From the IMG/VR virus record IMGVR_UViG_3300036652_000308, positions 1-49,176 of that record: DNA of 49,176 nucleotides. One strand, 5' to 3'. Numbering within the stretch: the stretch's first letter is position 1; each line of letters starts with the position of its first letter. Below are positions 4,147 to 49,176 of the stretch, one piece after another. This DNA comes from a virus. The position numbers and the translations under genes are program-made. The notes beneath the pieces were generated by a model that saw nothing but the letters and a program-made list of their open reading frames with translations, made no database searches and had not been told where the DNA came from.

Positions 4147-4946
4147 TTTCGCGCCTTCTTGACGCGCCAGTCATCCCAAGAGAAAGTAACAAACGTTGCG
4201 CGCTCACTCAACCGGCTCATTACTCGCGGCCCCAACAGCTCCACCAATTCAAGGCCAGGAAGGTTGGTGAGCAAGATCGTAGGGCGCATGTCACGATAGC
4301 GTCGGTTGATGATGTCGGTCAGCGTCATTTGCTCATCCGCGGTGCCGCGCTGCACGCCGACTTCATCGATCACCAGCAGGTCAATGCTCGACAGCAGGTG
4401 CATCATCGATTCTTCGGACCGCTCCGCGCTTTTGTGCCACGTACCGCGAACAGCGCGCAGCAGATCAGAGGTATCCATGTACATCGCCGTGCCACGCCTT
4501 AAAACGGCCTGTGCGACGGCCAAAGCAAGATGGCTCTTACCGGTGCCAGTCATGCCGCCGAAGACGAGGCAGCGGCCTTCTGGCGCTGTCTTGGACCAGA
4601 ATTCATCAGCAAAGCTCTTCGCTACATCATGGGCCCTCTGCATTTCTGCATTTTCGATAACGAACGTGTCGAATGAGCGGCCAGTGAAAGCAGCAGGGAT
4701 GCCGGCAGCACTCAGCTTCTCTTCGATACGTTTCTGGCGCTTTACCTCTTCCGCTGCCCGGGCATTAGCATCTTCCTGCTCACGCACGGTCTTGTTGCAC
4801 TTGGAGCAACCGAACCAGCGGATAGCATCCTCACGGCCAGTGAGCGAGCCGCCCATTTCCTGGTGCGCACCGTGCACATCGCACTGTGCAGCACGGTACT
4901 TCGTTACCGGCGTTGGCGTGTAATCTGAAAAGTTTTTGAAGGTCAT
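4143..4946 (-). CDS. DnaC-like replicative helicase loader
   Basis: 267 aa AAA+ ATPase. The N-terminus has a possible zinc site (CxxH at 22-25 and CxxC at 47-50), then a charged helix. The Walker A motif GGMTGTGKS is at 130-138 and Walker B LLVIDE at 190-195. Proteins of the DnaC/IstB family load the replicative DNA helicase onto the origin, and phages often pair them with an initiator, as here with the DUF1376-type gene directly upstream (4 bp gap). Expected to recruit host DnaB. The assignment as a loader is firm; which helicase it serves is inferred. Confidence 0.92.
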   Translation of the reverse strand: MTFKNFSDYTPTPVTKYRAAQCDVHGAHQEMGGSLTGREDAIRWFGCSKCNKTVREQEDANARAAEEVKRQKRIEEKLSAAGIPAAFTGRSFDTFVIENAEMQRAHDVAKSFADEFWSKTAPEGRCLVFGGMTGTGKSHLALAVAQAVLRRGTAMYMDTSDLLRAVRGTWHKSAERSEESMMHLLSSIDLLVIDEVGVQRGTADEQMTLTDIINRRYRDMRPTILLTNLPGLELVELLGPRVMSRLSERATFVTFSWDDWRVKKARK

Positions 4947-15875: not shown

Positions 15876-15971
15876 ATGTACAAGCAAATCGTTTGCCCAC
15901 AACACGGCACCAGCCAGTACGTAAAACCTGGCGTCTGGAAATGCTGGTGCGGCCGTTATCTCCGCGCCTAA
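15876..15971 (+). CDS. Tiny zinc-ribbon-like protein, 31 aa
   Basis: MYKQIVCPQHGTSQYVKPGV then WKCWCGRYLRA. CPxH and CxC could bind one zinc. GAAGGAAG precedes the start with good spacing. Confidence 0.6.
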   Translation: MYKQIVCPQHGTSQYVKPGVWKCWCGRYLRA

Positions 15972-16014
15972 CAAACCCCGCCCGCCACAAGCGGGCATCA
16001 CCTGGAGAATAAAA

Positions 16015-16209
16015 ATGAAATTGAAACAAAAAGGCTTTACGGTTTTTGAGTTGCTGGTCGGCATGGTTTTGCTCGTTGCCTCAGGAGGTTGGATTGCCAA
16101 TGTGGTGAAGCTTATTTCCCACGTTGACGATGGCATTACGATGATGGCCGTGCTTAGCGTAGTCGGCATCTTTGCGGCTCCACTGGGAGTAATCTTAGGC
16201 TTTTTCTAA
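16015..16209 (+). CDS. Prepilin-like small membrane protein, 64 aa
   Basis: Begins MKLKQKGFTVFELLVGMVLL: a basic leader ending in Gly7, then Phe+1 and Glu+5, followed by a hydrophobic helix. This is the recognition pattern of type IV prepilin peptidase (PilD). A second membrane segment fills the C-terminus (VLSVVGIFAAPLGVILGFF). It lacks a pilin globular domain. GGAG precedes the start. It might be processed by the host pilus or secretion system and affect pilus assembly; resemblance by chance of a membrane peptide is possible. Confidence 0.65.
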   Translation: MKLKQKGFTVFELLVGMVLLVASGGWIANVVKLISHVDDGITMMAVLSVVGIFAAPLGVILGFF

Positions 16210-16446
16210 ATGGCTCACGCCCCACCACCCAACCCAGCAGAGATAGAGTACAAGCACGCCCGAGCCTTGATGAACGTTCAGGAATTGGGCTTGCCGGTAC
16301 TCTATCAGGGCCAAAACGAGTTCATACAGGAATTCCACCGCGTGGACAAGGAAGTAGGCAGCGGCCTTCAAACCTACGTGTACTTGCGCGGAAATCCTGA
16401 CCTCATACCAGCAGCAGAAATAACCATCAAGGAGCAGCCGAAATGA
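16210..16446 (+). CDS. Hypothetical protein, 78 aa
   Basis: MAHAPPPNPAEIEYKHARAL starts on the base after the previous stop, so it depends on coupling. Mostly helical, then beta (TYVYLRGNPDLIPA). Overlaps the next gene by ATGA. No domain recognised. Confidence 0.6.
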   Translation: MAHAPPPNPAEIEYKHARALMNVQELGLPVLYQGQNEFIQEFHRVDKEVGSGLQTYVYLRGNPDLIPAAEITIKEQPK

Positions 16447-29486: not shown

Positions 29487-31016
29487 TTATTGAACGTTGA
29501 TCGATGCGAGTTCGATCTTTTGGACCGAGCCACCATCGGCATAGAAGAAAGTCATATCCGGCGAACCGCGAGCCACGCGCACTGCCGCGCCCGGATCAGC
29601 GATGTTCAGATACCAGCCGCGAGTGCTCACCACGTCTGCAATCTTCTTGCCCACCGATGCGTTGATGGATGCGATCTGATCGCTGCCCAGCGTGACGCCT
29701 GCGCGGATCGCACCGAAGTTCAGCGCTGCGGCGATTGGATCGGCCAGAGATGATTCGATTTGCGAGTAGCCGAAGTTGTTGTACGGGATCGTGCCAGCGC
29801 CGGTCATCAGTACCATCAACGACTGCTGGAAGGCCGAGTTCATCCAGATTTGGTTGTAGTAGCTGTCGGCCCATTTGAATGCGCCGCTGATCTGCCCAGG
29901 CTGCATGAAGCGGAACTGCTGCGCCGAGGTGGCATATGCGCCGTAGAAGTTGTAGCCGTTTGCAATCAGGGTATCGCCTGCGGTGGCGTCCATGACGGAA
30001 GGCGTCAGGCCACCTTGCGAGCGGAAGGCGAACGTTTGGCGACCGTTGGTAGTGGTGAAGTCCAGCGATGCAGCAATGCCCATGGCGAAGGCAGCGAGAG
30101 GCCGCACGATGCTTGCCAGCGATACGCCGAGCGCGGCAGCGACGGAAGCGTCACCAGTTACAGGCAGCGAACCGGAAAGTCCGACCGCCGCAACGCGTGC
30201 GCCGAAACTGGTCGTATTGCCCTGCACGAGCGCGTTGGGGTCGGTATCCCAGGCGACGTATGCAAACCGGTTGTTCTGCTGGCTGGTCCACGTAGCGAAG
30301 GCGATTTTCTCGTCGGTGGTCGGCTCAAAAGTGGTCATGAACGAAGCCCAGTTCAGGGCGCGAGCGGTCACGGCCAGTAGGGCAGGGGCCGGGGTCATCG
30401 CGGCGGAACCGGACGACAGTTGCGCGGCGGTGGCGGCGGTCAGGCGCAGGGCAGTAGCGAGCGCACCCGTGCCATACGAAACCAGACTCGTAGCGCCCGT
30501 GGTAGGCGATGCGAACACGAACGCTTGACGTTGCGCGTCGTAGGTAACGACAGGTGCGCCGCCGCCCGTGAAGGCCGCCTGAATGATCGACGCTGCGTTG
30601 CTGAAACTGGTCGCGGTGGACAGGTTGATTGCCGTCGAGGTCTTGGGGGTGCTGTCAACCGAAACGGTCAGCGTGCCGGATGCAATGCCGGTGATGGTGG
30701 TCAGCGGCTCGCCCGCGAACGAACCCGAGCGCAGGTAACCAGCAACCGGCGCGGAGGCGTATTGCGAGAACAGCAGCGCGCCCGGTTTGGCGGTCGAGTT
30801 GTCGTAGCCCGCGAAGTACACGGCGGACAGGTTGTATTCGTCGGAGGTATCACCGAAAAACTTGGCAACGTCAGCCGGGGAGGCGAACGACTGCACCGAG
30901 CCAATCGGGACGGCGGTATTGTTGGTCAGGGTCAGGCCCGACAAAGCCACGGCTGCGCCACCAGCGGTAAGAACGCCGGGGAATACAGCAACGAGCTTGG
31001 ATGCTGGAATGGTCAT
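29487..31016 (-). CDS. Tail sheath protein (DUF3383 type)
   Basis: 509 aa. Opening MTIPASKLVAVFPGVLTAGG, then SFASPADVAKFFGDTSDEYN and AAVYFAGYDN-like text, a variable Ala/Thr/Ser insertion around residues 90-210, and the conserved end with NFYGAYATSAQQFRFMQPGQ and ADSYYNQIWMNSAFQQSLMV. This makes the contractile sheath and defines the particle as a myophage. Confidence 0.92.
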   Translation of the reverse strand: MTIPASKLVAVFPGVLTAGGAAVALSGLTLTNNTAVPIGSVQSFASPADVAKFFGDTSDEYNLSAVYFAGYDNSTAKPGALLFSQYASAPVAGYLRSGSFAGEPLTTITGIASGTLTVSVDSTPKTSTAINLSTATSFSNAASIIQAAFTGGGAPVVTYDAQRQAFVFASPTTGATSLVSYGTGALATALRLTAATAAQLSSGSAAMTPAPALLAVTARALNWASFMTTFEPTTDEKIAFATWTSQQNNRFAYVAWDTDPNALVQGNTTSFGARVAAVGLSGSLPVTGDASVAAALGVSLASIVRPLAAFAMGIAASLDFTTTNGRQTFAFRSQGGLTPSVMDATAGDTLIANGYNFYGAYATSAQQFRFMQPGQISGAFKWADSYYNQIWMNSAFQQSLMVLMTGAGTIPYNNFGYSQIESSLADPIAAALNFGAIRAGVTLGSDQIASINASVGKKIADVVSTRGWYLNIADPGAAVRVARGSPDMTFFYADGGSVQKIELASINVQ

Positions 31017-47282: not shown

Positions 47283-49176
47283 TTAGTTGTTGATTGGGTA
47301 AAGGTCGGCAACAAAGGCTGAACCAGCTTTCGGCGTCGTTCCTGCCCCCTTCCCTAGAACGGTTACGTTCTCAACGAATGCGCTGCGTGTTTTCAAGTCT
47401 TGTAAATTCGGGTACGTGAAAGCGTTTGGCGCATCGCCGTGCAGGTTGCTGTAGTTTGCGGATAGCGAAACGCGATCATCCACTACCACAAGGTTGTGCG
47501 TGTTGGCCGAGAGGTCAACCACCATAGCACCATATTTGCAAAGCGCTGCAAGGACCGCCAGATACTCATAGCTGCTGATCTTTGCCGTAGGCGCTTGCGT
47601 ACGCCGCCACGTAAATTCGGCCTTGAGTGACGCCACCGTAAAGCGTGGATCAGTGGAGTACGTCCCTGACATTGGGGTGCAGCCAGAATAATTGGTGGTG
47701 TAGCTGTTGTCTACGCTGGTTCCTGGGTACGTCCAAATCGAGTTGCGCCCGCTGTCAGGAAATGCCTGCGCCACGGTTGTTATCGTTGGATCGCCGGCCA
47801 AGGATATTACGTTCAGGATGCAGCCGGTGCCTGCACCGTTCGTCGTGGTAGTGATATTTGCGCCATCGTCTGGTGGTACTCGATACTGACCTACACTAGC
47901 AACCAAAACCGAAGTTACAGCTCCATTTGCTCCGATGGTCGCAACCTCAAAGCGCGCCGGCACTTCAAAGGTTCCCGGCGTGGCGTATAGAATATTCCCC
48001 ACCGCATAGCCACTACCGCCATTCTGAATTGATGGGGTGTGCTTTTCAAACTGGGAAATGTAGCTCTTGTAGTTTATGCGCACCCCCGGCACCGCCGGGT
48101 CAGGGCAGTAGTCATACGACTTCAATTGCGCGCCGCCATAGACCATAGCCAAGCCATGCGGAATCGCATTCATGGCCTGATCAATCTTCGCAGATATCGT
48201 CGCGGGAGATTCTCCGGTCGTGCTGCTATCCGGGATATCGAGCCACTCTTCATAGCGCACGATGCCGCCAATCAAGCCGCCGCCCCACGCACGAGTGCCG
48301 TAAGATATTCCATCAAAACTGTTGTTGAAATTCAGGAACTCAGGCCGGTCAAGAATATATGGGATCGATGGGCCATTAGCATCCGTGACGACAGCCCGCG
48401 TGCAGCTTATCGCAAGGGTCGTCGGGTTGAACACCGCCTTGAACATTTCCACATCATAGCGCCCGTCCGCAGTTCGGATGCAAATGTTCTGGTCAGCATT
48501 GTTTCGATTGTTGATATATGCCGCGTCAACATAGCTTGGGATGTTCATTTTCCAAGTCGCATTGGTGAATTGCTCACCACCAGCTGCCTGTGCATCTGTA
48601 ACGCTGAACAGCCACCCATTAGGTGCCACCACACGCGCTGCCGTGCATGAGCGCACAGGGTCAGTGACGGACGACGGAACTACGGGGAATGAATTAGGAA
48701 AGGCAACCGCCTTGTTCTCACCTCCCCTGGTCACGCCGGTCAATGGGTTGACCGTGATAGAGTTTGCCTGCTGGCCCATGTGTGCGCAAAACGTCTCGGC
48801 ATTCGGGTAAAAGATCACTGCGTTCGTTGCGCCGAATTGGTTTTTACCGATCTGCGAAAGGTTCGCCACAAGCGGCTTTTCCATTGTGATCTGAGTTGCA
48901 CTGTCAATCGTCTTGATTTTGTTACCCACGCCAAAGATATCACGCGTTGTTCCTGCGTTAATCCCATTTGCAGCGAAGATTGTTGCAGCATCGCTCGTCT
49001 CGTAGGTGTACGAGATATTTCCTATCATGGGAATCATGCCAACTTTTAAATTCGCGGTTCGAGCCACCGTTACTACCGCTGAATTGGCGGTGCCTACTGC
49101 GTTGACAGTACCAGTGGTAGTTGCCAAATCATGGCAAAAACCAACGCCAGGAACAACAGCATTGCTCAACATTTTT
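47283..49176 (-). CDS. Tail fibre/tail protein, C-terminal part (starts at 1001)
   Basis: Open from the right window edge to the stop at 47283. Joined over the circle it forms the last two thirds of the 921-aa protein that starts at 1001. The ATG at 49172 is internal and not the real start. Regions such as SGYAVGNILYATPGTFEVPA, NGAVTSVLVASVGQYRVPPD and GGAQLKSYDYCPDPAVPGVR resemble repeat domains of large phage tail proteins. Rich in Gly, Ser, Thr and Asn, no catalytic motif seen. Probably a receptor-binding or distal tail protein. Confidence 0.8.
   Translation of the reverse strand, partial: KMLSNAVVPGVGFCHDLATTTGTVNAVGTANSAVVTVARTANLKVGMIPMIGNISYTYETSDAATIFAANGINAGTTRDIFGVGNKIKTIDSATQITMEKPLVANLSQIGKNQFGATNAVIFYPNAETFCAHMGQQANSITVNPLTGVTRGGENKAVAFPNSFPVVPSSVTDPVRSCTAARVVAPNGWLFSVTDAQAAGGEQFTNATWKMNIPSYVDAAYINNRNNADQNICIRTADGRYDVEMFKAVFNPTTLAISCTRAVVTDANGPSIPYILDRPEFLNFNNSFDGISYGTRAWGGGLIGGIVRYEEWLDIPDSSTTGESPATISAKIDQAMNAIPHGLAMVYGGAQLKSYDYCPDPAVPGVRINYKSYISQFEKHTPSIQNGGSGYAVGNILYATPGTFEVPARFEVATIGANGAVTSVLVASVGQYRVPPDDGANITTTTNGAGTGCILNVISLAGDPTITTVAQAFPDSGRNSIWTYPGTSVDNSYTTNYSGCTPMSGTYSTDPRFTVASLKAEFTWRRTQAPTAKISSYEYLAVLAALCKYGAMVVDLSANTHNLVVVDDRVSLSANYSNLHGDAPNAFTYPNLQDLKTRSAFVENVTVLGKGAGTTPKAGSAFVADLYPINN
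49048..49173. repeat. Right copy of terminal direct repeat (assembly overlap)
   Basis: Exact copy of 1-126. The last three bases of the window (TTT) do not match positions 127-129 (GGG) and are probably an end artefact. Unique genome length is then 49047 bp. Confidence 0.9.

Follow-up and report, generated by a model that had tools for sequence, protein, structure and literature searches.

A putative prepilin-type signal recurs in a minority of PHROG 6006, a family of small phage membrane proteins

Why a phage should encode a 64-residue protein that begins like a type IV prepilin and has no pilin head is the question raised by an open reading frame (ORF) at positions 16015-16209, plus strand, of the window, by which we mean the whole 49,176-nucleotide stretch of the phage record IMGVR_UViG_3300036652_000308. 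An identical 126-bp repeat is found at the two ends of this 49-kb record (1-126 and 49048-49173), and an independent identical contig, which does not cover the ORF, joins its end to its start; the record therefore maps as a circle of ~49,047 bases. The minus strand encodes the virion genes of a contractile-tailed phage (sheath, baseplate, portal, terminase, head protease), and on the plus strand a recombination region (Erf, exonuclease, NinB) lies shortly 5' of the ORF. The terminase is ~50% identical to the terminases of Aeromonas, Salmonella and E. coli phages, an identity that does not fix the host.

Homology to PHROG 6006 and to more than 80 relatives identifies the ORF as real and protein-coding. 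It starts with ATG, preceded 8 nt upstream by GGAG, and translates as MKLKQKGFTVFELLVGMVLLVASGGWIANVVKLISHVDDGITMMAVLSVVGIFAAPLGVILGFF; because the ATG of the following ORF directly abuts its TAA stop, the two are probably co-translated. The features discussed below are as follows.

15998-16014, plus strand: ribosome-binding region ctGGAGaataaaa, 5' of the ATG (sequence)
16015-16209, plus strand: 64-aa PHROG 6006 ORF, with a putative class III (prepilin-type) leader and a predicted two-helix membrane protein (sequence, profiles, AlphaFold2)
16015-16032, plus strand: basic leader MKLKQK preceding G(-1) (sequence)
16033-16053, plus strand: GFTVFEL, with G(-1), F(+1), T(+2) and E(+5); predicted to be cut by a prepilin peptidase between G7 and F8 (Pfam N_methyl, residues 4-20)
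16042-16125, plus strand: predicted membrane helix 1, residues 10-37, with the family signature GGWIANVVKL (AlphaFold2, family alignments)
16141-16203, plus strand: second predicted membrane helix (residues 43-63), broken at residue 54; contains G51, P56, G58 and G62 (AlphaFold2, alignments)
16210-16446, plus strand: next ORF, 78 aa, unmatched in PHROG; starts with ATG immediately after the TAA

Just 5' of the gene, a 31-aa ORF at 15876-15971 (MYKQIVCPQHGTSQYVKPGVWKCWCGRYLRA) displays a possible zinc-binding Cys/His pattern, and the interval between the two holds an 8-pair GC-rich hairpin (15977-15997) that a scan flagged as terminator-like on the minus strand.

The N-terminus, MKLKQK/GFTVFELL, consists of a K-rich leader followed by G(-1), F(+1), T(+2) and E(+5) and then by a charge-free hydrophobic helix. 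The Pfam model N_methyl (PF07963) scores it at 22.6 bits, above the curated gathering cut-off of 21.2 (E 7.3e-5), and NCBIfam TIGR02532 narrowly misses it, with 15.2 bits against a cut-off of 16.3, so that by curated models the putative leader is borderline to good. The prepilin leader with Glu+5 and a hydrophobic helix, on which the original prediction was built, is thus present, and the pattern recurs within PHROG 6006. A pattern scan of the window returned no other convincing ORF; matches at 30616 (plus strand) and 16001 (minus strand) were rejected, a continuous hydrophobic helix being absent or the match lying antisense to adjoining genes.

Profile comparison places the window protein in PHROG 6006, a family of small predicted membrane proteins carried by many tailed phages, whose members are 53-74 aa long and have no assigned function. 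The match is full-length (E 2.8e-13, profile positions 2-58 of 58). The family signature, GWxxN...R..G[IV]F.APLG..LG, is represented in the window protein by G25, W26, N29, G51, P56, G58 and G62; at the nearly invariant Arg48 position, before helix 2, it carries Ser48 instead. We recovered 87 distinct members and aligned 83, all of which match PHROG 6006; in this alignment N29, G51, G58 and G62 are invariant, and G25, W26, R48 and P56 nearly so. In a further alignment and in two search queries one relative was entered with two surplus C-terminal residues (YL), and another relative was given Met for its GTG start; the motif counts are unaffected by either. Relatives occur at 82 IMG/VR places and in phages of Vibrio, Acinetobacter, Klebsiella, Salmonella, Escherichia, Citrobacter, Aeromonas, Mesorhizobium, Octadecabacter and Synechococcus, the spread taking in Autographiviridae, Drexlerviridae, SSU5-type phage-plasmids, Saclayvirus and many environmental phages. 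A plasmid search with one relative returned mainly 108-112-kb enterobacterial plasmids, which we take to be SSU5-like phage-plasmids, the core being matched and the leader not; a plasmid search with another relative gave no match. The two nearest whole-phage relatives of the window phage contain no match to the protein, PADLOC left it unmatched, and a literature search returned nothing on PHROG 6006 or on phage prepilin mimics. A genome scan yielded two PHROG 6006 loci, both in metagenome-assembled genomes that also hold a prepilin peptidase gene, a number too small for a host correlation.

The AlphaFold2 model of the window protein is a two-helix hairpin (mean pLDDT 80.7; helices 10-37, 43-53 and 55-63). 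Its best Foldseek neighbors among viral proteins (TM 0.75-0.78) are small phage proteins to which no function has been assigned, and PDB searches by sequence and by fold returned nothing significant. The absence of a pilin head, as originally described, holds; the description is incomplete, since a second predicted helix at ~43-63 had been overlooked. Type IV pilins and pseudopilins share with the window protein the basic leader, the residues at -1, +1, +2 and +5 (G, F, T and E) and the hydrophobic helix; the window protein differs from them in lacking a periplasmic head and a pilin-type helix continuation, in carrying a second predicted membrane helix, and in falling below the TIGR02532 cut-off.

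How far the signal is a property of the family was assessed by scoring members for a basic leader, G(-1), a hydrophobic +1 residue (aromatic or Val in the carriers), E(+5) and a hydrophobic continuation. Eleven of the 87 members, from scattered lineages, carry it; three of these were recovered by a scan that itself started from motif carriers, and without its loci and the window the count is 7 of 78. Shuffling residues 2-22 (2000 trials) gave a mean of 0.4 carriers and a maximum of 3, which rules out a chance origin of the motif. As a control, 90 other ORFs with a hydrophobic N-terminus were taken from the same loci; one fits, and it is itself a short prepilin-like ORF; the set of 90 included two PHROG 6006 members that had slipped through the filter. 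Thr at +2, although not among the criteria, is present in all 11 carriers, compared with a mean of 1.4 and a maximum of 7 for sampled positions (20,000 trials), and the codons for G, T and E vary among them. Among the 83 aligned relatives, N_methyl and TIGR02532 are each matched by six (best E 8.7e-5). Members reading GFTSVQ, GFTSIW or GFTVDI resemble forms that lack E(+5) alone. These comparisons strongly support a genuine, recurrent signal rather than a chance resemblance, and because the 11 carriers retain G(-1), T(+2) and E(+5) with differing codons, selection on the signal in the carrier lineages is likely.

Our preferred reading, held tentatively and at a little less than an even chance, is that the window protein sits in the inner membrane and is a substrate of the host prepilin peptidase, whose cut directs it to the assembly of type IV pili or of the type II secretion system. 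The peptidase (PilD/GspO) would cleave after Gly7 and methylate Phe8, and the mature 57-residue protein would be kept in the inner membrane by the helix 2 anchor; its pilin-like N-terminus, with F1 and E5, would engage the assembly platform of the pilus or of type II secretion, where a non-extractable substrate mimic would dampen the machine in the infected cell. Relatives without the signal would skip this step, the same hairpin presumably serving a core membrane function. We know of no prepilin peptidase substrate with a second membrane helix, which speaks against this reading; if processed, the window protein would be an unusual substrate in that respect, and it would give phages a new way of disturbing pilus or type II secretion function. 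Recurrence of a class III signal offers a first handle on where a PHROG 6006 protein may act, and makes a link to the host pilus or secretion machinery testable.

The same leader would also suit a decoy that saturates the prepilin peptidase and so lowers the processing of host pilins and pseudopilins. Such a decoy could be small, as this protein is, and peptidase recognition of PilD substrates does not need a head; high expression would however be required, and we consider a decoy very improbable. The stronger version of our preferred reading, in which the signal was repeatedly acquired by a hairpin protein and the tethered pilin mimic jams the pilus or secretion platform and blocks pilus-dependent superinfection, is unlikely; a pilus-assembly poison, as originally suggested, is possible in a tethered form. 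Two small phage proteins that lower or shut down type IV pilus function offer a possible functional parallel only: pVII of Pf4, a virion protein that acts on PilC and PilJ (PMC11436027), and PIT4 of phage LSL4, a 131-aa protein that acts on the histidine kinases PilS/FleS (PMC10714779). Neither is described as resembling PHROG 6006, and PIT4, which has no known homologues, was ruled out as a relative.

Against the reading that we prefer stands the distribution of the signal. G(-1) with E(+5) is absent from most PHROG 6006 members, including all the named-phage members examined (phages of Vibrio, Acinetobacter, Aeromonas, Salmonella, Klebsiella, Escherichia and Mesorhizobium). Vibrio, Acinetobacter and Aeromonas are hosts generally known for type IV pili, and absence of the signal even from their phages argues that the core function is not pilus-specific. 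Homologues without a conserved Gly-1 and Glu+5 had been named beforehand as evidence against the prepilin idea; most relatives indeed lack both, while the 11 carriers keep these residues together with T(+2). In a phylogeny of the core (leader left out, 43 columns, most forks weakly supported), ~8 changes are needed to explain the signal label (7-8 in bootstraps, against a shuffled mean of 10.6), and one clade unites four of the carriers. Repeated gain or loss therefore describes the signal better than universal presence, and it is an add-on that the core role of PHROG 6006 does not need.

This distribution is what would be expected of an ordinary two-helix inner-membrane protein, for example one acting in superinfection exclusion or envelope modulation, whose basic N-terminus is a signal anchor that undergoes no processing, and we regard such an unprocessed protein as nearly as likely as the processed one. 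The T4 Imm-type superinfection-exclusion family is absent from the Pfam result for the window protein and from the 25 best-represented Pfam families of the 83 relatives. An ordinary membrane protein does not readily account for the return of the G, F/Y, T, E combination in several lineages with changing codons, nor for an invariant T(+2) that no criterion required, and placing Glu inside a membrane helix carries a cost that would call for a role.

Genomic context fits the ordinary membrane protein in so far as gene neighbors vary, as they do for free-standing accessory genes. PHROG 6006 genes usually lie amid early or DNA-metabolism genes or genes annotated without function, and no conserved neighbor was found, the best family accounting for 5 of 150 neighbors; because neighbors vary among relatives, the neighborhood gives no guide to function. 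A holin or antiholin, for which a two-helix membrane protein of ~60 residues is of typical small-holin size, would be expected in a lysis cassette, whereas the neighbors in the window and in the relatives are recombination, replication and unknown genes. No holin family matches above background, with one of the 83 relatives hitting Phage_holin_Dp1 at no better than E 0.048, and we rate this the least probable of the readings considered.

The second helix bears most directly on the proposal that the protein is a headless pilin built into the pilus, which it would cap or poison from within. The class III signal with E(+5) and the lack of a globular head are in keeping with this idea, and truly headless single-helix prepilin-like ORFs do occur in other phages. 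Hydrophobic helix 2 (residues 43-63) should however retain the protein in the membrane, so that assembly as an ordinary or minor pilin is unlikely; the usual continuation of the pilin helix is missing as well, and most homologues have no signal. The minor-pilin mimic of the original prediction, incorporated into the pilus, accordingly loses ground to the predicted hairpin, and we consider incorporation quite improbable.

The comparison also brought up phage ORFs of 44-107 aa whose N-termini are textbook prepilin sequences and whose heads are small or absent (for example MKYLKGFTLIELMIVLAIVGILASIVVPVFQDRNNDSANVEVVK). Four are listed here by locus.

L158, 1501-1635: Delftia phage PhiW-14 gp119, prepilin-like ORF
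L155, 1501-1680: Nankokuvirus Epa18 ORF, prepilin-like
L156, 1501-1800: PhiXhv-15 ORF, prepilin-like
L154, 1498-1821: Acibel004 gp97, 'PilE-like', prepilin-like ORF

PhiW-14 gp119, the Epa18 ORF and Acibel004 gp97 share with the window protein a putative phage-encoded class III signal, and differ from it in having no PHROG 6006 core and in consisting of a single helix with a short polar tail or a small head. All four listed ORFs fit the idea of a headless pilin mimic better than the window gene does. Prepilin-like ORFs were also seen close to PHROG 6006 genes. On one viral contig (L127), a 54-aa ORF beginning MKCNRGFTIIELMIVVAII (4304-4468) lies ~1.7 kb from a PHROG 6006 gene (2425-2613), and in Synechococcus phage BUCT-ZZ01 (L159) an 83-aa prepilin-like ORF (1501-1752) is located two genes 5' of a PHROG 6006-like gene (2319-2525) in the same gene run.
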